DNA of 64,000 nt from Terebella lapidaria (Eukaryota; Annelida; Polychaeta; Terebellida; Terebellidae): assembly GCA_949152475.1 (NCBI GenBank), contig OX424564.1, forward strand, positions 10,168,001 through 10,232,000, written 5' to 3'. Shown piece by piece: positions 1,918-50,292 of the stretch. Each line of letters starts with the position of its first letter. The first letter of the stretch is position 1. The notes beneath the pieces are model-generated. The model saw nothing but the letters and a program-made list of their open reading frames with translations. It did no database searches and was not told where the DNA came from. The position numbers and the translations under genes were made by a program.

Positions 1918-1920
1918 AAC

Positions 1921-1929: not shown

Positions 1930-1939
1930 ATGTACCAGG

Positions 1940-5236: not shown

Positions 5237-5260
5237 TTCTGCGTCAATTTTACAGCGAGT

Positions 5261-16825: not shown

Positions 16826-17112
16826 AGATTATATGACAAGCATGATGATTTCAATTTTCCCATAGTCAATTTCCTCATACGCTATTTAAGAGCCAGCTGT
16901 AGATATAAGGCCTTTGTTCACTGAAGTTCCCAGCTAATCTGCGACAGAGTAATGTTCTAATAAGATTAGTAGCTGTTTTCTAGAAACTATATTAAGGTCA
17001 TCACAATCTGGCTGATAAATACACACAATCTGTCACCATTATGCAGCATGGCCTGTTTGCATGAAAATGTTTTGGAATTCATGACGGGTGCCACATCAGG
17101 GCAGAAAATGCT
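16826..17112 (+). pseudogene. Tail of reverse-transcriptase relic (unit 1)
   Basis: It starts RLYDKHDDFNFPIVNF and continues to LIRYLRASCRY. Compared with the copy at 53,850 it has an internal loss of ~20 codons that keeps frame, shared by units 1-4, so the loss predates the array. Confidence 0.65.
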
Positions 17113-17794
17113 CACTCTTTCCCGAACACCTGCCAGTGCCCATTGAGCCAACTCTTAAATATTGCACAATCTGCCACAAATGTAAAAGAAAACAGCCAAT
17201 TTGGGATTTGATGGAAATTTTCTCAAAATTTGTTTAAACAATTTTCTTAAATCATGCATGCAATTCGTCTCATGTACCTTTGTAACGTGCTTCAATTTCA
17301 TTGCCCTTAAATAGTCGGTCTGTTGCGATTTTGATTTTTTCAGGTCAGCACAATTTCTTTTTGGATGAGTCAAGTCACTATCTATTTTGAGCTATTTTCA
17401 GCCAAAAAAGGTGCGTTTTGCCACAGGAGAATTGTTTGGAGTTCCATCCACTTTTTCTTTCATACTGGGAGCTGTATGGAGTAAATTCATAGAAGATTTC
17501 CCTTAAATATTGGCACATTCAACTAAGAAATCATATCTTTTGATTTCAATGGTGACCTTGAATTAGACATTCAATGACACTGAATGATCAAAACGGCAGT
17601 TCTCCTCGAAAAACTAAATTGATGGGGATTTTGACAGCGATGTTCAGTCACTTTTCCTCTAATTGATGAACAAGACCTATCTGTACCACGCGATGTGTGT
17701 ATGTTTCGCTGTTCTCGAACCGCTTGTCTGCATGGGGCGCCATTTTGATTTTCCGACGGTTCATAAAAATGTTTGGTCTGAAATTATGTCCTTA

Positions 17795-18655
17795 GGCTAT
17801 CATATTAAAATTAGTTAATTGTTTTACAAAAATTTTTTTTCTAAAACTTCACAATCGGTCGGGAGGGGCGACTAAAAAAATTTGTTGCTGCAATTATGTG
17901 GTCGGTCGGGTAAAAAAAAATACATACCAATTTGAGAAGATTCTATACTATACATGCTCAAGTGCTTGTACTTCCGCCCTGCTATACATGCTCAAGTGCT
18001 TGTACTTCCGCCCTGGTGACTTCCTTGTACAATATTACTGAACGTTCTTGTCATTTTAGTGGTGGGATACCACCATGATGTGTTATTATACATATTAGGA
18101 AAAACATGAAATGGTGACAATGATTTCATTTTGCTTCAAATATATCACTCAGCATTAATTTTGATATACGTGACTTCTGGAAATAAAAATGACATGAAAT
18201 GAACATGTCATGATATTCTAAGCAAAACACATAAGAGTGCTGAAAACCAATTCAGAAAATCAAAAAACAAAAGTATAACAGAAAGCCTGACCAGAAATAA
18301 CGAATCACACGAAAAATGTATATATAGACAAAACGGAAGAATTACTGTGCTTGTTTTGTTAATAACTGCATAAGATTTGTGACAAAGTTCGACAGTGTGA
18401 TTAGAGAGCTATGCTGTGGCATACTCGCATCTGTTACATGCTTCGACAACATACGATTGCTGATGACATGAATTGCGACTCCATATAACAGTTCTCAGCC
18501 ACAGCCAATCTTGATGTTGCACATTTTTTTCGGCGCATTTTGTTCCAATTCGTCGGGATGATAAAAATAAAGACATGAACTGCTAAATGTATTTCTTCGC
18601 GGCCATTTTCGACTAGAGTCGGCGGGTTTGTAAAACAAGTGAATAAATATAATGC
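17795..18655. mobile_element. Non-autonomous DNA transposon (MITE-like), unit 2
   Basis: This 861 bp insertion is absent from the same site in unit 1 (12,290) and unit 4 (30,962). It is flanked by CCTTA at 17,790-17,794 and 18,656-18,660, a 5 bp target duplication. The ends are imperfect inverted repeats: GGCTATCATATT... inward to TTGTTTTACAAA on the left and, reverse-complemented, GGCATTATATTT... to TTGTTTTACAAA on the right. Inside is a doubled ~35 bp motif around CATGCTCAAGTGCTTGTACT (17,950 and 17,986). No transposase frame is present. Superfamily not assigned. Confidence 0.8.
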
Positions 18656-19779
18656 CCTTATCTGTTTTGAGTCATTTCCAGCCCAAAAAATTATTTGTTC
18701 CAAATCTGTCGGCAAAATCGACGGATATTTTGAAAATTTTTTTTTTCAAAAAAAGCCCCTCTAACTGATGAACAAGACTTCCTATCTGTACTACGTGATG
18801 TGTGTATTTTCGCTGTTCTCGAACCGACGGTTCACCAAAACAGTTTGGGCTGAAATTATGTCCTTATCTGTTTTGAGTCATTTCCAGCACAAAAAAAATA
18901 TTTGTTTCAAATCTGTCGGAGAAAGCGACGGACATTTTGAAAAAAATAATGCTAAAAAATGATAATAGCCCCTTTTCTTTTGACAATTTTTCTGCACATC
19001 TTCAGAAAGATTCACCTGTAAACTGACAATACATGTACAAAATCATGGACGGACGACGACGGACGACGGGTGACAGGCAACAACGGATGATGAACGCAAC
19101 ACGATGCCAATATTCGATCAGAGTGAATACTTTAAAATATCCAATAACAGAGTGAACGGTGTGGGTAAAAAAACACATCAACTTAATATGTGGACATATG
19201 TTTCTTGCAATTGAACAAAACAATGAATAGAATGAGGTGATAGCAAACACACCGCTCTGTTTATAATCTATATTCGTGAACACATCAATCAATACCAGGT
19301 GATATTACATGAGGTCAGCCACATAATTTTCGAGAGGTGAATAGATATCATTGAAAGCTACAAATGTCATTATGACTCATGACACGAAATTGTACATAGA
19401 TCCGCAGACATAGAAGGCAGCAAAGAGGCGTCATGGTCGATCTCTGGCCATGTTGTCCTGTAAAATGGATGGACAGATAATGTGATGAACTCGCACAGTA
19501 CTGCTAGCCAAAGGGCAAAACATGGCATATGATCATTCTGTTCGTTGCAAATTTGAAGTTGCTTAATGTAATGAACAAATGATGTGAATGATAATCCTCA
19601 TGCTGTTTAATGGAGCGCACGTTGTCGAGAGTACGGTACAATACATGGTGTTGAGTACAGACAAAATCCGAGGAACGAACAGAATGGGTACCATGTGATC
19701 ATCACCGTGGGGGTAGCACATTTCAGGATATTACCTTAGCATTCGTTATACCTGTTCCATACAATAAGTGAAACATTGT

Positions 19780-19860
19780 GGATCATTTCCATAGAGTGGC
19801 GACATTTAATTACTTGCAGTGCGACTTGAACAGCTTAGATGGTCTGAACTTTCTAGCAGC
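19780..19860 (+). repeat. Left inverted-repeat arm (unit 2)
   Basis: Same arm as 13,445-13,520, in single copy; its partner is at about 22,442-22,515. Confidence 0.75.
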
Positions 19861-22414
19861 GGTACCTCCATACAACATGTTCATAAAAACCGTGATCTTT
19901 AAAAGTTATTATTACTGATTACATTTGACGTGCAATCAGACATGCACTAGCAGTGGAACTTAGTTTTAGTTTTTAGGTTTACCCGATTTTTGGTCCGATA
20001 ACTTATTGGAATAATATTGTGTGCGTCGTCCGATCCGTCTGTCAACAATTTTATGTTCAGATTTTTTTCGCGATCAGGATGGACATGTTTCATTATTATA
20101 CTAATAAAACTAACTTTTGAAATGGCAGATTGAATCGACGGGTGTTTTGTCAACATAATATACTTATGTGCATCCAAACATTAGCAATTTGAGACTTCAG
20201 GATGTATAGAATCTAGCGCGGCATTGCCGGTATTCTCATTGTATGTCAAGAAATATAGATTATAGCATTCGTCCGTAGTGAAACCCAACCACCAAAAACA
20301 TTATTTATTTCCAATGTAAAGAAAACAAAATTGTATTCAACATCATTTAGGAGTGTTGTTATCCATCAAGATAAAGGTCAAGATTGTGACTATAGCTAAC
20401 ATTGACTTGTGGGTTTGTTAAAATCATTTCTTTCGCAATCTAAATCGCCTTAGCTATACAAACGGCTATAGCTATGCAAACGGTTTTCGCGGAAATAGGG
20501 ACATTTTGACATCTGCAAACGTTGGTACATATTACGTGTACGAGTCCAGGTTTGTACTGCCTAAGTGCATTACAAGTGTGTCTTTAGCAGTAAAACGAGT
20601 GAGAATAAAGTTGTGCCCATAGAAACATTCTTTGGGCAGGAGCAATTTATACACAATTACAGGAAATTAATGCATGAGTAATCCACTCAGCTTGACCCAG
20701 AAACCTAAGCTCGCATGCAATGTCACATGGGAACTACTCTCTGAATGTGCAGACACTCATATCTTGAAAGAGATTTTATTCTTTTTGATTCTGATGAAAT
20801 GGGTATATGTTCAAACTAAATTCGAATGAACACATCCCAAGGCAAACTAATTTGACCAAACATCAGGCGTATTTGGTTTCGTTTCTGTGCGTATTCAATT
20901 ACAATTGTTTGTGTCTCCACCAGTATATTGGGTACATTCTCCGACACAACTGGAATGGTAGATGTCACAGGTGATCATTCTCTCATATCACGGTGGATTT
21001 CTAGTCCATACTTATCAGGTTTGTATAATCAATTCCAATTTACAAGATAATATTCTGCAAACAATCCAAGGCCGGAGAAATGGGAAACAACTGAATAATA
21101 TAAATGACTTTCTCTTGTCTGGCATTGAATATTCAAACACTGTAATTGCATGATTGATAACATCAGTGGCAATTCGGGATGAACAGTCGAATTCTGCAGT
21201 GTGCATGAGCATTATGTTAGTGATAATATTCGATGTCATGTAGAGGTTTGACATTGATGAAGTAATGATCAATCTTGTGCTATTAACTTGCATTATCCAT
21301 GTGCCCCCAGTTATTGTGAGGAGTGTAGCACACGTCACAGAACTATATTCTGCTTGTCGACTTGAGTCTTATACTCGATATGCCCATACCATGTCATATC
21401 AGTGCAAATTAGCTTATCATCATCATTGCCCTTATGCAACAAGAGGAATACCTAGCCACTGGTCCATCAAAGTAGAGCCGCCGAGGATTATGGGTAATTT
21501 GCTCGGATCAGATGACGGGAAGAGATGTTGGACGCCACGGAATAGACAAAGGATGTAAGCCTTTCAGCCGAAGTTTGCGAGTTCTCAAATGTAAAATGCT
21601 TATAAAGAACTACAGTTTAGTTCTTAATTTTCGTTACTGTATACAAGATACATGCAGACTTTTCGTAGCTGCAGTTCTCAGATAAAAGCTAGGTAAGATT
21701 CGACAGTATGACCTCTCTGGATTCTCTCCATTCAAAACGTATTTGTAGTACTCTGTCAAAAACTGCATCAACATTATTACATTCTTTTATGACTATGTGT
21801 CTTGTTGCTTACACACAGGTGAGCCCCTTTTAAGTTAAAAGTTATTTTGTTGCTCCCCTGCTGTGCGATATAATGAAACTACCGTGACATGATTCCAATG
21901 TGGATGGAACGAAAACTTCAATGGGAAGTAATCAAAAACAGATATAAGGCTTCTTGGCATAACCAACCCAATTACTTCTCTGATGTTATTGAAAATGTCA
22001 ATAAATCTTTGATGAGCATCATTTGTTACAGACAACTTAATCCCAACCACTGACACACCCTGGTGTTTGTAGCATTCGGTATTATTGACATGTATGCAAA
22101 AGCGATACCGACGGTCACGTGGTCCACTAAGCCTGTCTCCAGCCATCTGACACAAATTGAAATATATGCATCGTAAGCTCTCTCCAAAGGAGAACTCTCA
22201 GACTGGAGTAACAACTAATAACGGAAACATTATGTATTGTTCTGAAATATCTATTATGGATCCAGAAATTGTGACGTGTACTTGTAAATACTTGGGAAAA
22301 TGACCAAGAATTTAGTGAAGGCAAGCAACGAAGGCAAGCAACCAACGTTGGTATAGGCATGTCAAATTTAACCAGGTCTAATAACGTTTACAGTTCACGA
22401 CTGCACATGTACAC

Positions 22415-22615
22415 TTAATAAGACAGTGTCACTCCGAAGAGTTTCAGACCATCTAAGCTGTTCATGTCACGAGACAAGTAATTAAATGTCGCCACTCTAT
22501 GGGGAATGATCGACAACGTGGCGTGTGAGACATGACGCCAAACCTCCGGTGCTGCCTCCGTGAAAATAATTAATGTGCCTTTTTTGTCTGATACCCGTTT
22601 CACAGCGTTTACCAC
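22415..22615 (-). pseudogene. Second coding-like remnant (unit 2)
   Basis: The minus-strand frame carries NAVKRVSDKKGTLIIFTEAA, then WRHVSHATLSIIP, then RVATFNYL, and runs on into the inverted-repeat arm. The same frame is seen at 28,956-29,183 and, more diverged, at 52,110-52,262. Not recognised as a family. It lies ~330 bp upstream, on the minus strand, of the IKLSVTN frame, so the two could be pieces of one former gene. Confidence 0.4.
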
Positions 22616-23368
22616 ACAGAAAATTTTCCGTGAGACGTGGTGAAACAGTAGGGGAAAACGGTATTCTTTTCATTTTAGTAGAGCTTTGGCAGATCAATGC
22701 TTGCTTAGTATATTTATATGAAATGAATAATGAATAACAGAAAATCAATAAACTTATGCCAATATATATGGGACACACAATATTCAAGATTTCCGGATCA
22801 CGAATGGGTATGTCTGGAACTCATTTTGCATGTATATTGGAAAAAGGGCTTTATTGTTTGAGTAAACATGTTTTTAGAATGCTCGATTATTCATCCGCAG
22901 TATTTCATAGCCCGACATTAAGACATTTTATTGTTTATGGTTAAATTTATCTGAACACAACAACGAGATTTTATGGCATCATAAATATAGGTAAGCGATA
23001 ATTTGGCACATCTACCAGAGGAATATTCAACCGGGTACAAGCTTGTGTTCTAACCGTCAATACGTGATTTTTTGGAGTCATTCACGAGGCTGGGTCACAT
23101 CTGTAGACATTCAATGTCAGATTCGAGGAGGTTTAGATTCACGGAAATGAATGTACAAATACATGCTGATTGACAATTCGAATAAATTCAAATTATTTCA
23201 ACTCAAATACGCTCAAACTGATCGATTCAAACATAACATATTACTACAAAGTGTTGTATGTAAAAGGATTATGAGGATTCAAATTAATTTCCGACTGTCA
23301 CCTAACAAATGGTGAATTCGGCAATGAACTAGATATCTATTTTTTTTTACTAGATTATATCGGCAACT

Positions 23369-23660
23369 AGATTATATGACAAGCATGATGATTTCAATTT
23401 TCCCATAGTCAATTTCCTCATACGCTATTTAAGAGCCAGCTGTAGATATAAGGCCTTTGTTCACTGAAGTTCCCAGCTAATCTGCGACAAGGGTAATGTT
23501 CTAATAAGAGTAGTCACTGTTTTCTAGAAATTATATTAAGGTCATCACAATCTGGCTGATAAATACACACAATCTGTCACCATTATGCAGCATGGCCTGT
23601 TTGCATGTAAATGTTTTGGAATTCATGACGGGTGCCACATCAGGGCAGAAAATGCTCACT
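23369..23660 (+). pseudogene. Tail of reverse-transcriptase relic (unit 2)
   Basis: Near-identical to 16,826-17,112, including the shared internal loss; the segment ends in the ATGACGGGTGCCACATCAGG landmark just before the unit junction. Confidence 0.65.
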
Positions 23661-24334
23661 CTTTCCCGAACACCTGCCAGTGCCCATTGAACCAACTCTT
23701 AAATATTGCACAATCTGCCACAAATGTAAAAGAAAACAGCCAATTTGGGATTTGATGGAAATTTTCTCAAAATTAGTTCAAACAATTTTCTTAAATCATG
23801 CATGCAATTCGTCTCATGTACCTTTGTAACGTGCTTCAATTTCATTGCCCTTAAATCGTCGGTCTGTTGCGATTTTGATTTTTCAGGTCGGCACAATTTG
23901 TTTTTGGCTGAGTCAAGTCACTATCTATTTTGAGCTATTTTCAGCCAAAAAAAGTGCGTTTTGCCACAGGAGAATTGTTTGGAGTTCCATCCACTTTTTC
24001 TTCTATACTCGGAGCTGTATGGAGTAAACTCATAGAAGATTTCCCTTAAATATTGGCACATTCAACTAAGAAATCATATCTTTTGATTTCAATGGTGACC
24101 TTGAATTAGACATTCAATGACACTGAATGATCAAAACGGCAGTTCTCGAAAAACTAAATTTATGGGGATTTTGGCAGCCATGTTCAGTCACTTTTCCTCT
24201 AATTGATGAACAAGACCTATCTGTACCACGCGATGTGTGTATGTTTCGCTGTTCTCGAACTGCTTGCCTGCATGTGGCGCCCTTTTGAGTTTCCAACGGT
24301 TCATAAAAATGTTTGGTCTGAAATTATGTACTTC

Positions 24335-25192
24335 GGCCATCATATTTTAGTTAATTGTTTTACAAAAAAAAAATTTCTAAAACTTCACAATCGGTCGGGA
24401 GGGGCGACTAAAAAAAATTGTTGCTGCAATTATGTGGTCGGTCGGGTCAAAAAAATACATACCAATTTGGGAAGATTCTATACTATACATGCTCAAGTGC
24501 TTGTACTTCCGCCCTGCTATACATGCTCAAGTGTTTGTACTTCCGCCCTGGTGACTTCCTTGTACAATATTACTAAACCTTCCTGTCATTTTAGTGGTGG
24601 GATACCACCATGATGTGTTATTATACATTTTAGGAAAAACATGAAATGGTGGCAATGATTTCATTTTGCTTCAAATATATCACTCAACATTAATTTTGAT
24701 ATACGTGACTTCTGGAAATAAAAATGACACGAAATGAACATGTCATGATATTCTGAGCAAAACACATAAGAGTGCTGAAAACTAATTCAAAAAATCAAAA
24801 AACAAAAGTATAACAGAAAGCCTGACCAGAAATAACGAATCACACGAAAAATGTATATATAGACAAAACGGAAGAATTACTGTGCTTGGTTTGTTAATAA
24901 CTGCATAAGATTTGTGACAAAGTTCGACAGTGTGATTAGAGAGCTATGCTGTGGCATACTCGCATCTGTTACATGCTTCGACAACATACGATTGCTGATG
25001 ACATGAATTGCGACTCCATATAACAGTTCTCAGCCACAGCCTATCTTGATGTTGCACATTTTTTTCGGCGCATTTTGTTCCAAGTCGTCGGGATAATAAA
25101 AATAGAGACATGAACTGATAAATGTATTTCTTCGCAGCCACTTTCGACTAGAGTCGGCGGGTTTGTAAAACAAGTGAATAAAATATAATGGC
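24335..25192. mobile_element. Non-autonomous DNA transposon (MITE-like), unit 3
   Basis: Copy of 17,795-18,655 at the homologous site and inherited with the unit, not an independent insertion: the left junction, internal doubled ~35 bp motif and right end all coincide. The flanking target duplication has decayed. Confidence 0.8.
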
Positions 25193-28100
25193 TTTATCTG
25201 TTTCGAGTCATTTCCAGCCCAAAAAATTATTTGTTCCAAATCTGTCGGCAAAAGCGACGGATATTTTGAAAAAAAAATGTTAAAAATAGCCCCTCTAACT
25301 GATGAACAAGACTTCCTATCTGTACTACGTGATGTGTGTATTTTCGCTGTTCTCGAACCGACGGTTCACCAAAACAGTTTGGGCTGAAATTATGTCCTTA
25401 TCTGTTTTGAGTCATTTCCAGCCCAAAAAATTATTTGTTTCAAATCTGTCGGCGAAAGTGGCGGACATTTTGAAAACAATAATGTTAAAAAATGATAAAA
25501 TCCCATTTTCTTTTGAAAATTTTTCTGCACATCTTCAGAAAGATTCACCTGTAAACTGACAGGCAGCAACAGATGATGAATGCAACACGATGCCAATACT
25601 CGATCAGAGTGAATACTTTAAAATATACATTAACAGAGTGAACGGTGTGGGTAAAAAAACACACCAACTTGATATGTGGACCATATGTTTCTTGCAATTG
25701 AACAAAACAATGAATGGAATGAGGTGACAGCAAACACACCGCTCTGTTTATAATCTATATTCGTGAACACATCAATCAATACCAGGTGATATTACATGAG
25801 GTCAGCCACATAATTCTCGAGAGATGAATAGATATCATTGAAAGCTACAAATGTCATTATGACTCATGACACGAAATTGTACATAGATCCGCAGACATAG
25901 AAGGCAGCAAAAAGGCGTCATGGTCGATCTCTGGCCATGTTGTCCTGTCAAATGGATGGACAGATAATGTGATGAACTCGCACAGTATTGCTAGCCAAAG
26001 GGCAAAATATGGCATATGATTATTCTGTTCGTTGCAACTTTGAAGTTGCCTAATGTAATGAACAAATGATGTGAATGATAATCCTCATGCTGTTTAATGG
26101 AGCGCACGTTGGCGAGGGTACGGTACAATACATGGTGTTGAGTACAGACAAAATCCCAGGAACGAACAGAATGGGTACCATGTGATCATCACCGTGGGGG
26201 TAGCACATTTCAGGATATTACCTTAGCATTCGTAATACCTGTTCCAGACAATAAGTGAAACATTGTCGATCATTTCCATAGAGTGGCGACATTTAATTAC
26301 TTGCAGTGCGACTTGAACAGCTTAGATGGTCTGAACTTTCTAGTAGCGGTACCTCCATACAACATGTTCATAAAACCATGATCTTTAAAAGTTATTAGTA
26401 CTGATTACATTTGACGTGCAATCAGACATGCACTAGCAGTGGAACTTAGTTTTAGTTTTTAGGTTTACCCGATTTTTGGTCCGATAACTTATTGGAATAA
26501 TATTGTGTGCGTCGTCCGATCCGTCTGTCAACAATTTTATGTTCAGATTTTTTTCGCGATCAGGATGGATATGTTCCATTATCATAATAATAAAACTAAC
26601 TTTTGAAATGGCAGATTGAATCGACGGGTGTTATGTGAACATAATATACTTATGTGCATCCAAACATTAGCAGTTTGAGACTTCAGGATGTATAGAATCT
26701 AGCGCGGCATTGCCGGTATTCTCATTGTATGTCATGAAATATAGATTATAGCATTCGTCCGTAGTGAAACCCAACCACCAAAAACATTATTTATTTCCAA
26801 TGTAAAGAAAACAATGTAAAGAAAAAAAAATTGTATTCAACATCATTTAGGAGTGTTGTTATCCATCAAGATAAAGGTCAAAATTGTAACTATAGCTAAC
26901 ATTGACTTTGGGTTTGTTAAAATCATTTCTTTTGCAATCTAAATCGTCTTAACTATACAAACGGCTATAGCTATGCAAACGGTTTTCGCGGAAATAGGGA
27001 CATGTTGACATCTGCAAACGTTGGTACATATTACGTGTATGAGTCCAGGTTTGTACTGCCTAAGTGCATTACAAGTGTGTCTTTAGCAGTAAAACGAGTG
27101 AGAATAAAGTTGTGCCCATAGAAACATTCTTTGGGCAGGAGCAATTTATACACAATTACAGGAAATTAATGCATGAGTAATCCACTCAGCTTGACCCAGA
27201 AACCTAAGCTCGTATGCAATGTCACATGGGAACTACTCTCTGAATGTGCAGACACTCATATCTTGAAAGAGATTTTATTCTTTTTGATTCTGATGAAATG
27301 GGTATATGTTCAAACTAAATTCGAATGAACACATCCCAAGGCAAACTAATTTGATCAAACATCAGGCGTATTTGGTTTCGTTTCTGTGCGTATTCAATTA
27401 CAATTGTTTGTGTTTCCACCAGTATATTGGGTACATACTCCGACACAACTGGAATGGTAGATGTCACAGGTGATCATTCTCTCATATCACGGTGGATTTC
27501 TAGTCCATACTTATCAGGTTTTTATAATCAATTCCAATTTACAGGATAATATTCTGCAAACAATCCAAGGCCGGAGAAATGGGAAACAACTGAATAATAT
27601 AAATGACTTTCTCTTGTCTGGCATTAAATATTCAAACACTGTAATTGCATGATTGATAACATCAGTGGCAATTCTGGATGAACAGTCGAAGTGTGCAGTG
27701 TGCATGAGCATTATGTTAGTGATAATATTCGATGTCATGTAGAGGTTTGACATTGATGAAGTAATGACCAATCTTGTGCTATTAACTTACATTATCCATG
27801 TGCCCCCAGTTATTGTGGGAGTGTAGCACACGACACAGAACTATATTCTGCTTGTCAACTTGAGTCTTACACTCGATATGTCCATACCATGTCATACCAG
27901 TGCAAATTAGCTTGATCATCGTCGTTGGTGTTATGCAACAAGAAGATACCTAGTCCCTAGTCCATTAGAGTAGAGCCGCCGAGGATTATGGGTAATTTGC
28001 TTGGATCAGATGATGGGAAGAGATGTTGGACGCCAGTGAATAGACAAAGGATGTCGGCCTTTCAGCCGACGTTTGCGAGTCCAGAATGTAGAATGCTTAT

Positions 28101-40116: not shown

Positions 40117-40122
40117 AACGGG
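40117..40122. repeat. Target site duplication of the Polinton-like element, left (AACGGG)
   Basis: AACGGG directly precedes the first terminal base and recurs at 47,233-47,238. Six bases is the target-duplication length characteristic of Polintons/Mavericks. Confidence 0.9.
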
Positions 40123-41187
40123 AGTAGTTAGGACCGCACTTTAGGTCGGTTTTTCCAGGTTTCGGTTTCGGGGGTTTTCCCATGGTTATATGACGTCACT
40201 TCCGGTTTCGGTTTCGGTGGTTATATGACGTACTTCCGGTTTCGATGGTTATATGACGTAATAGGTGGTTATATGACGTAATAGATAGTAATAGGACGTA
40301 ATAGATGACGTGATAGGTGGTAATATGACGTAATAAATGATGTAATAGGTGATTATATGATGTAATAGGTAGTTATATGGCATCACTTTTGGTTTTGGTG
40401 GTGAAATGACGTAATAGGTGGTTACAAGACGTAATAGATAGTAATAGGACGTATTAGATGACGTAATAGGTGGTTATAGGTGGTTATATGACGTAATAGA
40501 TGACGTAATAGGTGGTTATATGACGTAATAGGTTTTTATAGGATGTGATAGGTGGTTATATGATGTAATAGGTGACGTAATAGGTGGTTATGTGACATAA
40601 TGTGTTCATATATGGCGTAATAGGTGGTAATATTGTGGTTATATGACATAATATGTGGTTATATGATGTCACTTTCGGTTTCAGTGGTTATACCTCACAT
40701 GATAAAGTTGGTTAGGTTAGGTGATTATATAATAAGTGCTCAATAGGTGATGTAATAAGTGCCCTTAATAGGTAGTTATACAACATAAAAGGTGGTTATA
40801 CAGTACCTATATGACATAATAGGTGGTAATATGACGTCACTTTCGGTTTCAGTGGTTATACGTCATGTGGTTTCGATGGTTATATGTCACATGGTTTTGG
40901 TGGTTATGCGTCATGTGGTTTCATAATAGGTGATTAAGTAATAGGCGGTTGCAAAATAGGCTAGGTAAATTATGACGTCACCGGCGTCCCCCATTCGAAA
41001 GGACCAATCAGAGCCCCCGAATTCGTACAGATTCAGACAAGTCCCCCACGCTCGTTAAATAACGTCACCAGCGTCCCTTATTTGAACGGACCAATAGGAG
41101 CCCCGGAATTCGTAAATGTTCAGACAAGCCCCCCACGCTCGTTATATGACGTCACTAGCGTCACCCCATTCAAACGGACCAATCAAG
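40123..41187 (+). repeat. Left terminal inverted repeat with CRE-like minisatellite
   Basis: It is about 1,065 bp. The outer ~850 bp is a minisatellite built on ATGACGTAATAGGTGGTTAT with about ten TGACGTAA motifs. The inner ~215 bp (40,972-41,187) is three copies of an ~85 bp unit holding a GACGTCAC-like site, a CCAAT box (GGACCAATCA) and CAGACAAGYCCCCCACGCTC. It is longer than the right arm because of copy-number differences. Confidence 0.9.
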
Positions 41188-43920
41188 CTTATTGTATAGG
41201 CCATATTGTATAGGTCATACTTAAGTTTTAACTTTGTATCAGTATGCACACTAGGAAATGCATATTCACAAATGACTGTATATTGCAAAATAAATCTTTT
41301 ACACACTATTATACACTTTATTTCAACTTTTAAAACTGAACCATCGAATCATTCAAATTATCGTGCAAATATGTTCGTTACCCCTATAACATTTAAAAAT
41401 AAACCAGTCAAATCGAGCTTATCCTCAGCCATTATGTATAATACATGTCCTGAGTAGATTGTGGGCGAATAATGACGTACAAGTAATATTATTGATATTG
41501 TAATGAACCTCCCCATGTATAAATTTATCTTGCTACTCTGAGAGGACGGGTAAACAGGGGGTAGGTGACGCAAATGAAATTCCATATAAATATCCTATTT
41601 AAAACAAATCTTGTTTCTGTCCCCGTTACTCTTGTATGTATTCAAGATAAAGAATTAAGTTTGTTTTATATCATATCTCCTTTTTTCGTGGGAAGTTTTT
41701 TTTTTGTACTTTTGGGCGCGCGGTTAAAGTCGGCAGTTAAATCACAGCCTAATCGGTATGCCTTGGCGACTTGGAACCTACGGTCGAATGGTCCCGAACC
41801 TGAATGGCACCTTGGCCCAGTGCTCGAGAATTATCGGGGTACGGGATATATAATTCCCTTTCACCAGACACTTAGCGTGTTATCGTAGCCTTGTACCCTC
41901 ACGACTCAAACACACGTCATGGCTATCTGGCTACTGATATCCGTTTACCATCCGCGTTTAGTCCCTTGTCTGCAGGTACCGACGGCTCAATGTAAAAATA
42001 CTCAGAACATTGAAGGATTTAATTCGCCATTGCACAGCGCAATCTTTCAGACGAACCAACGCTCATATTACGGAAATTTATGTTGAACGAGTGAATCTCT
42101 GTATTAGTGCATGTCGTGTTGGAACCAGTCATATATTCACACGGTTAAGAAGAAATGTATATGCTTAATTCCTTTATCATGCCGTGGCAGCAGTCATTAC
42201 CCCAAGTACATACCATTGTATGAGTACACGTCTTTATACCGGCCTCCTCGCGGGCCACTGGCCATGTAAATGTCAGGGAAAGTTGTAGTGTGAGCGTTAT
42301 ATCAGCCGCTCACGGAATATCCCGTTAATTTCACATCCTAAATCTCCCGAATATTATCAGATTTACCCCCGTTCAAACGAATGTAATGCGTGGTTTAATC
42401 CCGTATAATGTTCTCTCATTGGTCATAATATATTGTTCATTTCAATGCGAGTGTTCAGCGTTGACGTCCCTGTAAACTTTTGATGCCCAGCGCGGTAGAG
42501 TTATTTTAGCAGTCTGGAACCGCTGTAGGCGTACCAGCCCTGTACTGAAGTGTGTGGGGTGTAACCTCCAGACAGGCGTGGGCCGGATCCTCTGGCTGGC
42601 TGGTAGAACGTGTGCGCTGTGAATATCGATTTTTCTTTGTTAGGGTTGGAAACTCTCGAGGCCTACAGGTAGATCCGTATGCGTTATAAATCTATATCCC
42701 CGTGTTCTTCGTATTCTCGGCGAGACCGAGTCAAACTCTCTCGGCACATTAACTCTCCAAACGGTACATTATATTTTTTAAATATATCCTCATTTTGTCG
42801 CGTTCTCGTAGACTTTGGAATGAATTTATCCAGCTTCTCACTACTCTATATACCCACGCTCAAAGCCGTGACGTAGAGTTTCGCGTCGCGTGGGGTGGGG
42901 GAGAATGCCTCTATCCTGGCGTAAAATATCGCGTCGCGTGGGGTGGGGGGACGCGGGTAACAGTTGCATACACTCCCGGGGTTCATAGACTATAGCACGC
43001 AAAAGCGTCGGGTGGGGGAGTGAAATGGAAGTAACGTGGACAAATACGGTAGGCGTACTTCCGACCATTAGTAACATTTTACGAGTGTAATCCAGTTTTC
43101 TGGATCCAGCATGCTCTAAAAATAGAAATCCTTCCATATTGCTTATTCATATAACTCGAACCGAATTCGAGTGAAGTTCCCCCCGCTACCGGACTGTATA
43201 TAGTTGCACCCAGCCGGGGTAAAATAGTAATTCTACAATAAATATATGTATCGTATCAACCCGGAATGTCCACAGAGTTACACAATTTCATTACCACTTC
43301 AATTTGGGACAACGCAGTTAATGGCTTGTTCTCCTTCTGTGCTATCTCGTTATTAATAATTGGTAATAATAACGCAGGTTGCGCATTTATTTGTTCGAGG
43401 TTTGAAATATTGATCGAAAATAGCATATAAGGATTTTGACTGATAATTTGAACCAGTTATATATTATGGTCTGAAATTAGTTTGCGAGCATGTATGTTCC
43501 TCGGAGAGAAGCGTGCGGGGGGAGGGGCGGACTTTTTTCCCTGAAACTTGTGTCAGCACGAATGCACGCGGCATTAAAATGCACCGGGTGTGGGCAGATT
43601 AATGCTTCGATACCTGATAGTAAAGGTGGTGGGGGAATACATGAGGCGATTCTACGCCTCGGGAAAGTTTTATAACTGATACATGTTGTGCTATCGCGCA
43701 TGACATTACTTTGTATGCGTTGTCCCATAATTCAGAGACGGTCTTCATTTTTGTATTTATAGTTAGTGATTTTGGCGTCTTTATTGTAAGTTATTTTACA
43801 GTTTATATCACATTGAGCGTGCATTATTATCCAACGTGCTTCATTTATATATGCTTTATCTAACGCGAAGAAAACATGTAAAACATATCATACATGAAGA
43901 AAACGAGTAATTTTTCCAGT
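41188..43920. other. Interior of the Polinton-like element without recognised gene
   Basis: No frame longer than ~107 codons and no recognised protein. G+C content rises at about 42,470-43,060 and 43,490-43,670, with repeated TCGCGTCGCGTGGGGTGGGG at about 42,881 and 42,930 and a related GCGTCGGGTGGGGGAG at 43,004. These could be promoter or replication-related elements; nothing proves it. Confidence 0.55.
42878..43020. repeat. G-rich direct repeats in the element interior
   Basis: GCGTCGCGTGGGGTGGGGG occurs twice ~50 bp apart, with a shorter third copy further on. The G-runs could fold into a quadruplex on the plus strand. Confidence 0.6.
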
Positions 43921-43921
43921 T

Positions 43922-43927
43922 TTTATT
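43922..43927 (-). terminator. Polyadenylation signal for the ATPase-like gene
   Basis: AATAAA on the minus strand, about 130 bases past the stop of the 520-codon frame. A T-run on the plus strand (43,961-43,972) lies between stop and signal. Confidence 0.55.
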
Positions 43928-44056
43928 TCACACCACACAATATTTACAATTTCTACACACTTTTTTTTTTTTAGTTTTTCGCAATTTTGTATTCTTGTTC
44001 GCTAAACTACGCATGCACAATATACAGTTATCATGGCAGATATGGGGTAGGGTTTC

Positions 44057-45619
44057 TTAATATTCAATGTCCTCATCCATGGAGTCCTCTTCTTCCGGCT
44101 GAACGATATCGTCGAAGAGATGATTGAGTTTCTCCATGGACAAATTAAGGGCTTCCTCGAAGTTGGCTCCCCGTCCCATATATTTTTCCACAACTTTCAT
44201 GATTTCCGTGTGGATCATGCTTCTTTGCAACAAATGGTTCATCTTTACCATGGTTTTGTACATTTCCATCAACCCCGTCTTCATTTCCAGTTTCACCTCA
44301 TCTTCGGGCAACTCGGGTGTATATTCCATGACGCGATGCAGCAGGTACTCGAAGGCCGTTTCGCATATGTCATGGTCCTGGACTCCCTTGCATCCATTTT
44401 GGAACCAGCTTACGACTTGATCGAACCAGTCATGTTTCATCATGATAGCCATGTTGAGCGCATCTTTGAATGTAGCACCTCGCGCTCTGTATTCTTCAAC
44501 TGCCTTTTCAATTTCAGCATGAATCCGACTTCTCTGGAGCAGATGGATGCAATTCGCCACTCTCTGGTAGGCATTAATCAATTCTTCTTTCGTTTTTTGC
44601 GCGACCTCCTCCTCCGGCACTTCTTTTTCCTCAATTTCGCCCTGAACAGACTTCAGCATGCGTTTGAAGGCGCTTTCGTCCATTTTTCTGGGGAACTCGT
44701 CTTCCGACGACTCGTCATCGTGTGCGGGACATCTCGGCAAATGCATTTGTAGCTCATAGTTACTCGAAAACAGGGCTCCGCAGCTGAAACATTTCGCTGT
44801 CTTGTCCGACTGCCATCCCACGTATTTTGTGATACTTTGAGATGATGCGGGCTGGTCCGGGACTGGACTCTCATTAGACTGACTCGAAAGGGGGTTCGGT
44901 CTCAGGCGTTTATCTTCCTGCGTTGTCGGCTTCAGGTCCACGACGAGATGTCCGTAGGGCTTGACGGTTGCTCTGTTGAACTCTTGAAGAAACTTTTGGG
45001 GGCAGGCGGGATACATTTGCCTGGCCAGGGTCATGATTTGCTGCTGATCGATAGGGTTTCTGAACAGAGTCAGATAATGACAGTTTCTCCTCTGAGTCGG
45101 GTCCTTGCTGTAGTAGAGGTTCTGGTTCAAGCAAATGACGCTCAGGTTCCGGTGGTGGCTCCCTTCCGTGAACAAGTCCGTAATTCTCGGATCCTTGGCG
45201 GAAATAGACATGAGGTCGTCCAGGACAATGACGTTATTTTCCATAGGTGAGACGAAGTCATCAGAATCCAGATTGATAGGTATCCCCTGTATGAACTGCA
45301 CGGGAGGCTGCACACTAGACCTTATGATGTCATAGAGCGGTTGCCATCTTTTGTACAGCCATATGATCCTGGTAGGGGCGGGGAATATTTGACCGAACTC
45401 CAAGAGGGATTTTACCCAAGCCGTCTTCCCACACCCAGTAGGTCCTGACACGTTCAGGGTGAAGGGGTGTTGAAATACCAGGGGATCCATATAATTGACT
45501 GACCAGTGCTTTTGCTGCTGTGGCTGAGGCTGAGGCTGTGGCTGTGACTGATGAACCATGTTAAAAAACACTATATCAACAAATATTAGCCATATATCTA
45601 GCACATTATAATTATGCAC
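44057..45619 (-). CDS. Packaging-ATPase-like protein of the Polinton-like element
   Basis: It has 520 codons, or 500 if translation starts at the second methionine (MVHQSQPQ). After a Q/P-rich N-terminus a P-loop ATPase domain spans residues ~45-235: Walker A GPTGCGKT (59-66), Walker B VIVLDD (130-135), then FTEGSHHRNLSVICLNQNLYY and PYGHLVVDLKPTT. Such wording is typical of FtsK/HerA-type genome-packaging ATPases of Polintons and adintoviruses, which pump DNA into capsids; the family call is from memory. A C2H2/C2HC-like finger follows (C277, C280, H293, C297). An acidic C-terminus then carries a duplicated helical module (about 344-400 and 447-503, both with HLLQRS and RGA.F..ALN). Poly(A) signal at 43,922. 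The frame is uninterrupted. Confidence 0.8.
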   Translation of the reverse strand: MHNYNVLDIWLIFVDIVFFNMVHQSQPQPQPQPQQQKHWSVNYMDPLVFQHPFTLNVSGPTGCGKTAWVKSLLEFGQIFPAPTRIIWLYKRWQPLYDIIRSSVQPPVQFIQGIPINLDSDDFVSPMENNVIVLDDLMSISAKDPRITDLFTEGSHHRNLSVICLNQNLYYSKDPTQRRNCHYLTLFRNPIDQQQIMTLARQMYPACPQKFLQEFNRATVKPYGHLVVDLKPTTQEDKRLRPNPLSSQSNESPVPDQPASSQSITKYVGWQSDKTAKCFSCGALFSSNYELQMHLPRCPAHDDESSEDEFPRKMDESAFKRMLKSVQGEIEEKEVPEEEVAQKTKEELINAYQRVANCIHLLQRSRIHAEIEKAVEEYRARGATFKDALNMAIMMKHDWFDQVVSWFQNGCKGVQDHDICETAFEYLLHRVMEYTPELPEDEVKLEMKTGLMEMYKTMVKMNHLLQRSMIHTEIMKVVEKYMGRGANFEEALNLSMEKLNHLFDDIVQPEEEDSMDEDIEY

Positions 45620-45938
45620 CCCTCCTCATCGTCACACTATCACTCAATTGTTTTTACAATCATTATCATAATTGTGCAATATTGTCGCCAATCACTGTTT
45701 ATATGTCCTTGTATTATATATGTATATATGTCATCTAGTTTAAAAAAAAAAAATTATATGTATTTATGTGGACGTCTATGTGTTCTTGAACTTACGTTGT
45801 AATTTATGTCACGGGGTTACCCGTTGTACAGACTTGAAGTCTTGGGTAACCCTCAAGCTGATAGGAATCGCCTCTTTTATTTACATGATTATGTTTGTAA
45901 ATTTTACTTATCAGTTTGGAATAAATGTTCAATTCAAT
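45620..45938. mobile_element. A+T-rich insert with LINE/SINE-like 3' tail
   Basis: This A+T-rich stretch lies between the two Q/P-coding repeats. It ends in AATAAATGTTCAATTCAATTCAAT (split as AATAAATG then TTCAAT repeats), a simple-repeat tail common at 3' ends of LINE/SINE copies. It contains a hairpin-like pair GGGTTACCC / GGGTAACCC (45,815 and 45,845). It may be a small retroelement inserted into the Polinton-like element. Its left boundary is unclear. Confidence 0.4.
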
Positions 45939-46307
45939 TCAATGAGGCTGAGGCTGTGGCTGAGGCTGAGGCTTAGGCTGAGGCTGTGGCTGTGGCTGAG
46001 GCTGAGGCTGTGGCTGAGGCTGAGGCTGAGGCTGAGGCTGTGGCTGAGGCTGCCAAGCCTGAGGCTGAGGCTGAGGCTGCCAAGCCTGAGGCTGAGGCTG
46101 TGGCTGAGGCTCAGGCTGCCAAGGCTGAGGCTGAGGCTCAGGCTGCCAAGGCTGAGGCTGTGGCTGGGGCTGAGGCTGAGGCTGTGGCTGAGGCTGCCAA
46201 GCCTGAGGCTGAGGCTGCGATGGATAATCCATATGGTGCAATTTTTTATGTCTTTTCAGGTCTTGCTTCCAATTATATGTCTTGTGGCAGAGAGCACAAG
46301 AATTCAT
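45939..46307 (-). CDS. Small C2H2 zinc-finger protein with Q/P repeat tail
   Basis: A 122-codon frame in the same orientation as the ATPase-like gene. One classical finger sits at the N-terminus (C4, C7, H20, H24; CALCHKTY...LKRHKKLHH). The rest is almost pure QP with occasional WQPE. ATPase-like proteins of this kind often carry an N-terminal finger, so it may be functionally tied to the neighbouring frame; here the two are separate. The mirror frame on the plus strand (AEAEAV repeats) is an artefact of the repeat. Confidence 0.55.
   Translation of the reverse strand: MNSCALCHKTYNWKQDLKRHKKLHHMDYPSQPQPQAWQPQPQPQPQPQPQPQPWQPEPQPQPWQPEPQPQPQPQAWQPQPQPQAWQPQPQPQPQPQPQPQPQPQPQPQPQPKPQPQPQPQPH
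45941..46218. repeat. GAGGCT/GTGGCT hexanucleotide microsatellite
   Basis: About 45 imperfect hexamers (GAGGCT, GTGGCT, with CAAGCCT and CAAGGCT variants) encode the QP repeats on the minus strand. A shorter relative at 45,521-45,548 encodes the Q/P stretch of the ATPase-like frame. Confidence 0.95.
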
Positions 46308-46400
46308 GTTGCCTCTTCAACGTCTCTTCTTCGAATGACAGTCTCTAGCTGATATCGCCACTTTTATACTCTTCAGGAACGGGAACAGCAGTTGTGTACT

Positions 46401-46595
46401 TCAAAATGATGTCTTCCCTTGCTTGATCAGCAACTTGGCCCGTTCCACAGTCTGTTGTGTTGGTGTGACTAACTTTACCACTACTTTTTCTGTCTTGTCC
46501 GCCTTTTCATTGACAGTGTGAATCTTTTTTTCTTTCTTTTCCTGTTGATATTTCTTCCAGGCATCCACTGCGGGAAGGTACGGCTTGAGGGGCAT
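46401..46595 (-). CDS. Small lysine-rich protein of unknown function
   Basis: A 64-codon frame beginning MPLKPYLPAVDAWKKYQ, followed by a Lys/Glu-rich middle and ending LLIKQGKTSF. It lies just inside the right terminal repeat with the same orientation as the other frames of the element, so it would be the first gene read from that end. It is mostly hydrophilic with no recognised domain. Context is the main reason for listing it. Confidence 0.4.
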   Translation of the reverse strand: MPLKPYLPAVDAWKKYQQEKKEKKIHTVNEKADKTEKVVVKLVTPTQQTVERAKLLIKQGKTSF

Positions 46596-46680
46596 GTTGA
46601 TCCTTCAGCGTCCGAAATGCGAATGAGGAAAGAGCTCAGTACAAAGACTTACATAGTTTTCTCCTTCGAAATGCTCGATT

Positions 46681-47232
46681 CTGATTGGTCCTTTCGAATG
46701 GGGTGACGGTAGTGACGTCATTTAATGAGCGTGGGGGACTTGTCTGAACATGCACACATGCATTCCGGGGCTCTGATTGGTCCATTCAAAAGGGGGATGC
46801 TGGTGACGTCATAATTACCTGGCCTATTGTGCAAGCCCCTATTACTTAACCACCTATTACGTCATCTATTACGTCATGTAACCACCTATCACATCCTATA
46901 AAAACCTATTACGTCATATAACCACCTATTACGTCATCTATTACATCATATAACCACCTATAACCACCTATTACGTCATCTAATACGTCATATTACTATC
47001 TATTACGTCATGTAACCACCTATTACGTCATTTCACCACCAAAACCAAAAGTGATGCCATATAACTACCTATTACATCATATAATCACCTATTACATCAT
47101 TTATTACGTCATATTACCACCTATCACGTCATCTATTACGTCCTATTACTATCTATTACGTCATATAACCACCTATTACGTCATCTATTACGTCATATAA
47201 CCATCGAAACCGGAAGTGCGGTCCTAACTACT
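46681..47232 (-). repeat. Right terminal inverted repeat
   Basis: It is about 552 bp. Reverse-complemented, it matches the left arm from base 1 with local copy-number differences. TTACGTCA occurs about ten times; GATTGGTCC (inverted CCAAT) at ~46,683 and ~46,775 belongs to the inner ~85 bp unit, present in fewer copies than on the left. Confidence 0.9.
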
Positions 47233-47238
47233 AACGGG
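47233..47238. repeat. Target site duplication of the Polinton-like element, right (AACGGG)
   Basis: Partner of 40,117-40,122. The following GTCAATAATTGTACCTGG continues the paralogous sequence at 9,144-9,161. Confidence 0.9.
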
Positions 47239-48971: not shown

Positions 48972-50292
48972 CTATCCGACAGACTCAACTGGTGAACCGG
49001 CCTTGACACTATGACGATTGTGTGGGTCACTATTCATCACCGACATGTACATGTCATTGTCTGACTGACGAAATACACAGTTCTTGCCATTTCGGATACT
49101 ATCCAGGCGTGTGGGTTGTGTTGTGGGCTCCGAGAGTGTCATGTTCATGTTGTTCATGTGTCTCTTCGAGTAGCAAATCATCCAGACGAGCTGGTGCCTG
49201 AACTTCTGTCCCGTGGCGCAGTAGAGGAAGAAGTTCATGGCGTGGTTTATGTACATCAGAAGTTCCGTGATTGTCCTCGCCAGCTGAAACTTCGAAACCA
49301 GGGCCAGGTCTTGTTTGTACTCGTCCAAGAAGAACGCTATGCTGTTCGTGATTGTCATCGGCAAAGTGGTAAGCAAGAAGGCAAACGTAATGGTCAGCAA
49401 CATGATGGTCAAGCGGGTGTTGCCTTCATGTGACGGTCTTCGCTGGGCATGCTCGTGCATGCTGCCGCTCCGCAGCTCCATCCGGTGTCTCCTCGCCAGG
49501 ACCACTTGGTGGATGATCATCGCATTCAGGACGATGATAATGAGGAAAGGCAGGAGCGAGTAGATAACAGTATCCATCCATGGCCAGATTTGCTCCATCA
49601 CTTCTGAGTGATCAGTTAGACCAGCACACTGCATAATGGTTTCGCCCTTGTGAGTGAACTTGCGTAGTCCCACCGTCCAAAAACAGTGACTGTTGATGCC
49701 AAATAAAACCACCAGGATTGACAGAATCACCACTCTGGCCTTGCGTGTGTTACACCAAGAATTGGCCTGTAGTGGATGACATACCACTATGTATCGTTCC
49801 ACGGTAACTGCAATGATCAGCCACACACTGAAATCACTCACCGTATACCCGAGAACGTTGATCAACTTACAGAGCCAGGCTGCCTGGTCCCTAACATCGT
49901 AACCAGTCAATTCGCCCACCCACAGCCTTAACAGCCCAATGTAGAGGACCAGGGTATCCGCGATAGCCAGAACCATCAGGTAGTAGTAAGTTGAGAACTT
50001 CAGCATCGCCTTCCTCTTCAAGATGATGAAGGAGAAGATATTACCGAAAGTACCGAGGATGATGAGGATCGGCGGCACGTAGAGCAAGATGAACTTGTGT
50101 GCGCGGTACTCATCATACTGCATGAGCTGCTCCTCGTACGAGTGGACATGCATCTCGAGTGTCTTGAAGACGTCAGCAAGCTCCGGGTACTTCTCCTTGA
50201 GCTGCTGCGAGATCACCTCAACTTCGGCCGGTGAGAGCTGCTCCAGAAACATCCGCACCATCGTCAGGTTTGCTCGGTCGCTCCCCGGCACA
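48972..50292 (-). CDS. Rhodopsin-like (class A) G-protein-coupled receptor, main coding exon
   Basis: The open frame encodes a seven-helix plasma-membrane receptor, probably for a neuropeptide. Numbering from the exon's first full codon (GTG at 50,291): N-glycosylation site NLT at 8, TM1 ~68-91 (GN 83-84), TM2 ~102-124 (LAIAD), TM3 ~142-167 with C141 and ERY 165-167, TM4 ~186-207, C222 as disulfide partner, TM5 ~239-264, TM6 ~293-317 (ending LLTTLP where many receptors have CWLP), TM7 ~335-358 with NFFLY (353-357) for NPxxY, then helix 8 and C373. The frame opens directly at a strong 3' splice site (50,293), so an upstream exon is likely. The first in-frame ATG is at 50,261. It resembles molluscan receptors annotated as FMRFamide- or TRH-receptor-like; ligand unknown. 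Confidence 0.92.

Follow-up and report, generated by a model that had tools for sequence, protein, structure and literature searches.

A candidate family of helper-dependent Polinton satellites carrying a divergent packaging-type ATPase in the annelid Terebella lapidaria

Introduction

The window analysed here is a stretch of 64,000 nucleotides of the Terebella lapidaria genome, in which an initial annotation had described a small Polinton-like element (40123-47232). The (AGT)2...(ACT)2 end motif and a 6-bp target-site duplication (TSD) are given as typical of Polintons/Mavericks in PMC8097293. The question raised by this locus is how an element with such ends is propagated at so small a size, and which function its packaging-ATPase-like gene may serve. 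DNA transposons commonly give rise to non-autonomous derivatives, and Repbase holds entries for non-autonomous Polintons. Among the papers listed by literature searches on non-autonomous Polintons, satellites and palindromes, no title or opening of an abstract describes elements of the kind reported below.

Results

The element is bounded by exact 18-nt inverted ends, AGTAGTTAGGACCGCACT, identical at 18 of 18 positions, and is flanked on both sides by the six-base duplication AACGGG (Table 1), as initially annotated. Searching the window for this end with up to three mismatches returned two matches, both of them ends of the element, for a chance expectation of 0.03. The arms, described as near-identical, show 98% complementarity across 344 nt (40250-40593 and 46844-47187) and continue inwards at 91% (41116-41185 and 46682-46751), with indels separating them near the right tip. 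Stretches of the interior are shared at about 83-95% with other long copies; the short subfamilies L026-L033 do not align to the window interior upstream of element position 3798, and two ORFs tested within the interior had no protein-family match.

Table 1. Features of the element in the window and the evidence for each.
Feature	Position	Strand	Evidence
Left TSD copy, AACGGG	40117-40122		Sequence read by eye
Terminal end, 18 nt, (AGT)2 motif	40123-40140	+	End search; at least 13 exact genomic places
Left terminal inverted repeat and subterminal repeat array, TGACGTMA-rich	40123-41185	+	Sequence comparison
Interior without convincing genes	41186-44056		ORF list, profile search, alignment to other copies
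ATPase domain, second zinc-finger-like motif and helical tail, 500 aa from ATG	44057-45559	-	Pox_A32 profile, genomic matches, dN/dS
Dispersed repeat within the linker, probable core 45565-45940	45560-45943		Gap in alignments to other loci
Separated 5' portion of the ATPase gene, encoding the C2H2-like finger MNSCALCHKTYNWKQDLKRH and the Pro/Gln linker	45944-46307	-	Frame in other loci
Conserved ORF, 64 aa	46401-46595	-	Matches in other loci, pN/pS
Right terminal inverted repeat and repeat array	46682-47232	-	Sequence comparison
Inverted terminal end, 18 nt	47215-47232	-	End search
Right TSD copy, AACGGG	47233-47238		Sequence read by eye

The whole genome (761.6 Mb) was then searched, and it is from this one genome that the family is known here. 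The ATPase is matched at 92 places or more. A genome-wide end search allowing three mismatches was unspecific, control matches outnumbering real ones. At 19 of the 23 ATPase loci that were read, window included, both ends and a perfect, distinct 6-bp TSD were found. Eighteen of these 19 delimited copies measure 3.0-7.9 kb, and one measures 22.5 kb. The small family that had been supposed is real and multi-copy: other copies are numerous, most of them 3-8 kb long. A lone internal collapse in the assembly is ruled out, since independent insertions carry different duplications. Among the end-paired elements listed (n = 35), this ATPase is present in 28, PolB in three and neither in four. Retention extends to the short, 3.0-kb form L028; L053 was read as an end-paired element without the ATPase. 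A search of IMG/VR with a few short patterns returned no relative by single protein, exact end or alignment.

Full Polintons with shared ends, which the initial annotation had proposed to look for, are present in the same genome. They span 15-20 kb, compared with 7,110 bp in the window, in line with the annotated estimate of half the usual size or less. The first 109 nt of the window element differ at two positions from the end of one of them (C8, 19.3 kb, TSD CGTGTC), and the C8 end is 71-89% identical to small elements of type I over about 380-750 nt. Near the end of another (C1, 20.2 kb, TSD ATTGAC), 1,138 nt are 99.2% identical to L029, a small element of one subfamily. Such close matches between small elements and Polintons lie at the ends or, in one subfamily, at the end and in the flanking gene; the ends of the elements are chimeric. 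C8 and C1 each encode an ATPase of their own in an open frame, and 11 C8-type ATPase copies are 100% identical in protein. The C8 PolB reads in pieces, through introns or damage; PolB frames of 1,049-1,428 aa are found elsewhere in the genome.

Twelve Polinton proteins were used as queries against 17 small elements. The ATPase was matched in all 17, one 324-aa protein in three and the others in none, including the four PolB pieces, the integrase and the putative capsid protein of C8. The latter, which had no Pfam match, is presumed to be the capsid protein from its position. The same C8 polymerase pieces, integrase and putative capsid protein found no match in the window element, where no polymerase, integrase or capsid gene had been recognised at the outset. 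A second gene is carried by the small elements: 19 of 21 other loci contain a match to the 64-aa ORF, whose pN/pS is 0.25 (19 copies, 13 distinct). This ORF resembles a 68-aa ORF that immediately precedes the putative capsid gene in a full Polinton, and matches L035:4262-4465 at 6e-14.

The ATPase-like frame of the window is listed from a GTG (44057-45619, minus strand), with its first ATG at 45559. It matches the Pox_A32 profile just at the Pfam cut-off (7.2e-5, 22.8 bits). We take GPTGCGKT to be its Walker A motif and VIVLDDL its Walker B motif; both motifs are retained in all 19 family rows aligned. An internal repeat is visible by eye in the helical tail. The full gene consists of an N-terminal zinc finger, a Pro/Gln linker, the ATPase domain and the helical tail. 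In 16 of 21 other loci, the ATPase frame runs continuously into the finger and linker (617-691 aa), with a finger of the window type in 13 and of another type in three; in five of the 21 loci, no ATG is present upstream of the linker. Both finger motifs score under the Pfam cut-offs.

The ATPase of the window copy is separated from its N-terminal part by a dispersed repeat. The repeat has no counterpart at that point in the other copies aligned, and its core of about 376 nt has at least 40 genomic matches including itself, the best others at 99%. The frame announced as uninterrupted is indeed open, but the gene is longer and its N-terminal part has been cut off. Likewise, the ends and arms fit the recent movement that had been suggested, although this copy already bears the repeat insertion.

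Among the ATPase matches listed in the genome, 71 of 87 are free of stops and 16 contain them. The median dN/dS is 0.25 over 23 copies whose pairs are not independent; it is 0.57 for the most recent pairs and 0.23 for the deepest, a pattern expected when individual copies degrade once inserted but the lineage remains under constraint. The protein is 36-39% identical to the Polinton ATPase, which bears out the annotation of a packaging-ATPase-like gene and, being so low, argues against a deletion remnant of the helper gene. No listed PolB or canonical ATPase lies closer than 30 kb to any of the 92 places; for comparison, 49 of 73 canonical ATPases lie within 20 kb of a PolB, among the matches listed. 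Divergent, fused, constrained and located away from listed PolB genes, the ATPase does not appear to be a deletion leftover.

The fold assignment rests on sequence similarity, because AlphaFold yielded a poor model, whose pLDDT of 46.8 is too low to support an argument from structure, and a Foldseek search of viral models with it gave nothing at E ≤ 0.001. A PDB sequence search with the ATPase gave four matches, all at E ≥ 0.18, and PHROGs a single one (0.0013), without function and spanning 33 residues of the tail. An origin of the helical tail from the 324-aa Polinton protein was discarded, as BLASTP gave no match.

Some elements are palindromic, as marked by 14 divergent gene pairs, and at least two fold-back joints are present in palindromic elements. 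A finger of a different type is carried by L020, L022 and L024, whose right arms are also shared, with 97-98.5% identity across 400 nt. This arm aligns over no more than 105-112 nt with seven of the eight others compared, and at 79-80% with the eighth, L025, although the ATPase core of L020 is closest to that of L019. The finger and the adjoining right arm have been exchanged as a block. A finger that reads the arm would be expected to move with it; the exchange can also reflect plain recombination of neighbouring sequence.

Discussion

The window element is probably a member of a family of Polinton satellites that depend on a helper and carry their own packaging motor, packaging being proposed from the kinship of the genes. 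The ends and the duplication uphold the initial Polinton reading, but the element is not simply a short Polinton: the family has a distinct, constrained ATPase, a second small gene and recurring palindromic forms. The gene content also agrees with the dependence on proteins supplied in trans that had been presumed.

We infer mobilisation in trans, a packaging preference, a role of the finger and a fold-back origin of the palindromes, according to the following scheme. The satellite would keep cis-acting ends recognised by Polinton proteins, so that full Polintons could copy, integrate and encapsidate it. The helper would supply the protein-primed polymerase for copying, the DDE integrase that creates the 6-bp duplication, and the capsid. 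Two genes of morphogenesis type are retained under selection, the fused ATPase and the small protein resembling a capsid neighbour. When a helper is active, the satellite ATPase would use its finger or tail to bind the DNA of the satellite; it would dock on helper capsids and pump this DNA in, in competition with the helper motor. Palindromes may originate from a displaced strand that, by folding back at a short inverted repeat, primes its own synthesis, such forms then spreading. More tentatively, and as a possibility rather than a favoured conclusion, several lineages of animal Polinton satellites may have acquired ends from different types of Polinton and may carry a DNA-targeted motor, the finger being swapped with the arm that it would read; they would be animal counterparts of the phage satellites that redirect packaging. 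Some of them would propagate as inherited fold-back genomes, a record of Polinton replication by way of single-stranded intermediates that prime themselves.

Maverick particles have not been observed, according to the abstract of PMC8097293. A parasite that retains packaging-type genes would, if confirmed, be independent evolutionary evidence that Polinton particles exist that can be filled, and satellite biology of the phage kind would extend to animal genomes. A single genome that contains several types of end, full Polintons to match them and one motor in common offers a testable system.

The ATPase could act elsewhere than in packaging. It may serve integration or replication as an adaptor of the MuB or TnsC kind, bringing DNA to the helper integrase. 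We regard this as unlikely, although a zinc finger with a linker would suit DNA tethering, the finger has been exchanged along with the right arm, and the ATPase makes up most of what is encoded by elements that require hardly more than integration and copying. The relatives of the protein are the packaging-type ATPases of Polintons (as presented in PMC4028283), and the companion small ORF resembles one adjoining a putative capsid gene, both of which speak for packaging instead.

It is distinctly improbable that the ATPase acts as a poison of helper packaging and so protects both the host and the satellite. Satellites often reduce their helpers, as phage satellites do, and a high copy number would provide a dose effect. 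A poison sits poorly, however, with Walker motifs kept in every aligned row, and spreading as elements with their own duplications requires a benefit to the element itself.

That the elements are ordinary deletion derivatives of Polintons, with a leftover ATPase piece of no function to them, is very unlikely. The 16 matches with stops, the cut gene of the window and the four end-paired elements without a listed ATPase, L053 among them, are what such decay would leave. Remnants would nevertheless be expected to evolve free of constraint, contrary to the low dN/dS, and the divergence from the helper ATPase and the retention of the gene in 28 of 35 end-paired elements, down to 3.0 kb, also oppose this origin. 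A segment of a divided (bipartite) virus, whose helper Polintons would need this ATPase, would account for the shared ends and for the absence of overlap between the 92 places and listed PolB genes, but can practically be dismissed given the open-frame ATPases of C8 and C1 and the 11 identical C8-type copies.

Among known systems, the proposed satellites are closest to Polintons/Mavericks (adintovirus-like) in end motif, long inverted repeats, 6-bp TSD and packaging-type ATPase. They are smaller (18 of 19 delimited copies measure 3-8 kb, against 15-20 kb), the 17 elements searched gave no match to PolB, integrase or the putative capsid protein, and their ATPase forms a separate, fused lineage. 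With MITE-like or deletion-derivative transposons they share a high copy number and, presumably, the use of the ends and enzymes of others; unlike these, they carry genes under purifying selection, the main one not being a deleted helper copy. The PICI/SaPI and P4 satellites of phages redirect packaging. By analogy, the elements would resemble them in lacking a full set of virion genes, in having a packaging-related gene of their own and in using helper particles; the genes are unrelated, and here the genome is that of an animal and the helper would be of the double-jelly-roll type. Virophages and polinton-like viruses are likewise small companions of a larger virus with a packaging ATPase, but virophages are described as carrying their own capsid module (PMC11071308), and the satellites searched gave no match to the putative capsid protein. 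The palindromes recall the snap-back genomes of AAV, in which one end of the genome is reported in palindromic form, either symmetric or looped (PMC8235507); those of the satellites differ in belonging to integrated, multi-copy, inherited lineages of elements.

The window element

The exact 18-nt inverted ends reported in the initial annotation are present at 40123 and 47232 and nowhere else in the window (0.03 expected by chance), and the claimed AACGGG six-base target duplication was found on either flank of the element. The arms, described as near-identical, are 98% complementary over 344 nt, but indels occur nearer the right tip. The ATPase-like frame is likewise present but is not the whole gene, a repeat of about 376 nt separating the finger and linker from the ATPase. 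This dispersed repeat (45565-45940) has an ATTCA-rich tail and 40 genomic matches including itself, the best others being 97-99% identical, and is probably a recently active short element. Against Pfam, the window ATPase reached the cut-off exactly with Pox_A32 (7.2e-5) and matched adenovirus IVa2 more weakly (0.048). The 7-transmembrane receptor gene adjoining the element suggests that the surrounding DNA is of animal origin. The arms contain arrays of TGACGTMA: 32 of the 43 matching rows in the window are inside the element, with 4.3 expected in the whole window. These arrays are candidate sites for binding or for transcription.

Features of the window element and of related elements in the same genome. 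Bare coordinates are window positions; TSD, 6-bp target site duplication; PolB, protein-primed family B polymerase.
Feature	Position	Strand	Size	Remarks
ATPase ORF, window element	44057-45559 from first ATG; listed to 45619 from GTG	-		only gene-like long ORF
64-aa ORF	46401-46595	-		matched in 19 of 21 fetched loci
7-transmembrane receptor gene adjoining window element	48972-50291			
C8 Polinton	C8:33903582-33922884		19.3 kb	TSD CGTGTC
C1 Polinton	C1:76507652-76527844		20.2 kb	TSD ATTGAC; second end type; PolB and canonical ATPase inside
Third PolB-bearing element	C12:21491320-21506668		15.3 kb	ends differ from the window element's by 2 mismatches
L036 palindrome			5,680 bp	TSD TGTTGG; arms of 2,311 nt at 100%

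A family of independent insertions

In the genome (761.6 Mb in 438 contigs), 13 places carry the exact 18-nt end and none carries the reversed control pattern. With three mismatches, 318 matches were obtained versus 367 for the control; as this pattern is no longer specific, only end places with at most two mismatches were used. For the ATPase, at least 87 rows matched, with identities of 88-100%; of these 87, 71 are stop-free. The count is a lower bound, because scoring covered the best 86 of 601 first-look candidates. Subtracting two second parts and adding seven places with family-like scores yields at least 92 ATPase places. One more copy, previously missed (locus L054), has a frame break in the ATPase.

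Twenty-three ATPase loci were closely read (window, L014-L033, L036 and L054). In 19 of them the element could be delimited at both ends and is flanked by a perfect 6-bp duplication, all 19 duplications being different; L018, L026, L030 and L032 could not be delimited at both ends. The comparison of lengths proposed in the initial annotation gave 2,994 to 7,903 bp for 18 of the 19 delimited copies and 22.5 kb for one on contig C9. The delimited copies are independent insertions with different duplications, and a lone assembly artefact is therefore ruled out. The C9 element (G000:C9:37465475-37487962; loci L052 and L023), with a perfect CTCTAT duplication, a satellite ATPase and no PolB among the matches listed, is possibly a satellite swollen by nested insertions.

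Ends shared with full Polintons

Full Polintons sharing ends with the family were sought and found on contigs C8 and C1 (Table). The C8 Polinton, used as reference and read in two pieces, contains PolB matches in several frames, a 204-aa ATPase and an integrase with a chromodomain (rve 1.5e-12). It also encodes a 427-aa protein without Pfam match, which we take, from its position, to be the capsid protein. The first 109 nt of this Polinton and of the window element differ at 2 positions. The inverted repeats of satellites with window-like ends align with it at 71-89% over about 380-750 nt (73% over 617 nt for the window element).

A second end type, AGTAGTATGGGGGGGG, was found at 50 genomic places (control, 6) and is common to the C1 Polinton and to satellites of mostly 5-6 kb. 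Near the C1 Polinton end, 1,138 nt are 99.2% identical to satellite L029. At C6:15601836 (L005), an exact window-type end has a canonical ATPase, that of Polintons themselves, at a distance of about 20 kb and PolB at 15 kb. The first 1.5 kb inward from it aligns with the C8 Polinton end at 83%, and L005 is taken as one end of another full Polinton. Ends have been exchanged between the satellite family and full Polintons. The C8-type ATPase itself has eleven matches, query included, that are 100% identical in protein (C1, C4, C8, C9, C12, C13 and C15), pointing to a burst of full Polintons in the very recent past.

Gene content

Ends facing each other within 25 kb with at most two mismatches, three-mismatch places being dropped, delimit at least 35 elements, of which 14 belong to the first end type and 21 to the second. 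Among the matches listed, the ATPase is found in 28 of these 35, PolB in three and neither in four; the latter measure 0.8-3.3 kb, with no listed PolB within 10 kb. No satellite ATPase (0 of 92) lies within 30 kb of the 123 PolB or 73 canonical ATPase matches listed. Of the canonical ATPases, 49 are within 20 kb of a listed PolB and 24 are farther or without one.

The initial annotation had recognized no polymerase, integrase or capsid gene, which holds for the 17 small elements searched with 12 C8 Polinton proteins (E ≤ 0.001): PolB, integrase and putative capsid had no match, and only the ATPase (17/17) and a 324-aa protein (L027, L029 and L033; 61% identity) were detected. This protein of 324-367 aa (L029 7741-8844, minus strand; L035, from the C8 Polinton, 7610-8584, minus strand) has no Pfam match above cut-off and is carried near a full Polinton end and in one satellite subfamily. 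Three ATPase matches of equal score (G000:C2:32919831, C11:34642087 and C13:19088327) possibly form a second satellite-like lineage. Their identity with the Polinton ATPase is 38%, no PolB is listed within 20 kb of any of them, and for two the open frame measures 516 aa.

The ATPase gene

The satellite ATPase frame is 617-691 aa long in 16 of the 21 fetched loci. It consists of an N-terminal C2H2-like finger, a long linker of mostly Pro and Gln, and the ATPase, followed by another finger-like motif and by an acidic helical tail, in which an internal repeat was seen by eye. In five loci (L017, L023, L025, L028 and L031), the first methionine comes only after the linker. Four motifs, Walker A, Walker B, GSHH and NQN, are conserved across 19 aligned family rows and the C8 Polinton ATPase. 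Identity with the C8 Polinton ATPase is otherwise only 36-39%.

The median pairwise dN/dS is 0.25 (23 copies), with 0.57 for the youngest pairs (dS <0.02; seven pairs, 31 versus 14 changes) and 0.23 for the deepest. This is the pattern of constrained lineages whose copies decay after insertion. In the ATPase tree, the three copies with the second end type group together (support 0.985), and a group holding L028, L031 and L036, with AGTAGTAAGGAC ends, has a support of 1.000.

Small second gene, finger and right arm

The 64-aa ORF carries a stop in L015, is split in L023, lacks an ATG in L022, and is absent from L028 and L031 among the 21 fetched loci. Its pN/pS is 0.25 (19 copies, 13 distinct; L015 and L023 left out). 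Its relative in the C8 Polinton, a 68-aa ORF (46-49% identity, E 6e-14), lies directly upstream of the putative capsid gene.

A first finger type, MNSCALCHKTYNW, starts 13 of the 16 full-length loci and a second, MDTCSICLKKFSR, the other three (L020, L022 and L024). In these three, the 400 nt adjoining the 64-aa ORF on its right are mutually 97-98.5% identical; their right arm is 79-80% identical to that of L025, and with the remaining seven loci in the comparison it aligns over only 105-112 nt. By its ATPase core, L020 is closest to L019 (dN 0.0035, dS 0.028), which has the first finger type; therefore the finger has moved together with the small ORF and the right arm, as a single block, relative to the ATPase. 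This exchange fits a finger reading its own arm, and also neighbouring sequence exchanged together without any finger-arm recognition. The finger itself suggests possible targeting of satellite DNA.

Palindromic elements

Among the matches listed, 28 ATPase places are arranged as 14 divergent pairs, the two starts of a pair being separated by about 2-3 kb. L036 was read whole, and the centres of the other 13 pairs were read. A first joint, with finger starts 410 nt apart, is common to six of the 14 palindromes and a second to four (L041, L042, L043 and L049); the centres of L045 and L046/L047 seem to be of other kinds, and in L044 a single arm was mapped. Base-by-base reading of the first joint in L036, L039 and L032 shows a 13-nt overlap of the arms around the self-complementary CATTCGAATG; the second joint has a 6-nt overlap. 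L032, with two copies of the first joint, is a palindrome made of palindromes. Another palindrome, L053, measures 3.3 kb (duplication GATGGC) and has no ATPase.

Short inverted matches at the joints are the trace expected from fold-back self-priming, and the palindromes would arise by fold-back on such matches followed by self-priming. Since the same joint is found at different sites, the palindromic elements themselves spread. Snap-back forms are known for adenovirus. The palindromic elements have the layout of AAV snap-back genomes, as presented in PMC8235507. At G000:C17:27767420-27773136, two canonical Polinton ATPases lie divergently about 5 kb from each other, with no listed PolB within 20 kb, which may indicate palindromic forms among full Polintons too.

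Nature of the family

The family is not a simple deletion derivative of Polintons, because the satellite ATPase is a separate constrained lineage. The family is also not a Polinton by gene content, polymerase, integrase and putative capsid having been searched in the small elements and none found. It is a mobile multi-copy family on Polinton ends, with two constrained genes of Polinton-morphogenesis type and palindromic lineages, and it probably works like a satellite. We infer that Polinton proteins would mobilize it in trans and that its ATPase would serve the packaging of satellite DNA. A packaging role is preferred because the main gene has its closest relatives among packaging-type ATPases, according to PMC4028283, and because the companion gene adjoins the putative capsid gene in the helper. 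No description of Polinton satellites of this kind was found in the part of the literature surveyed, Repbase and most subscription papers being outside the survey, and novelty is a matter of judgement.

Other features of the window

About 3 kb of sequence at 16.5-19.5 kb has a direct repeat at 22.9-26.0 kb, some 6.5 kb downstream, with an identity of mostly 89-99%, and both copies contain a 34-nt tandem pair (within 16500-26000). On the minus strand of 1890-5935, broken reading frames with gag zinc knuckle, protease and integrase stretches were seen by eye, presumably those of a Copia-type retrotransposon.
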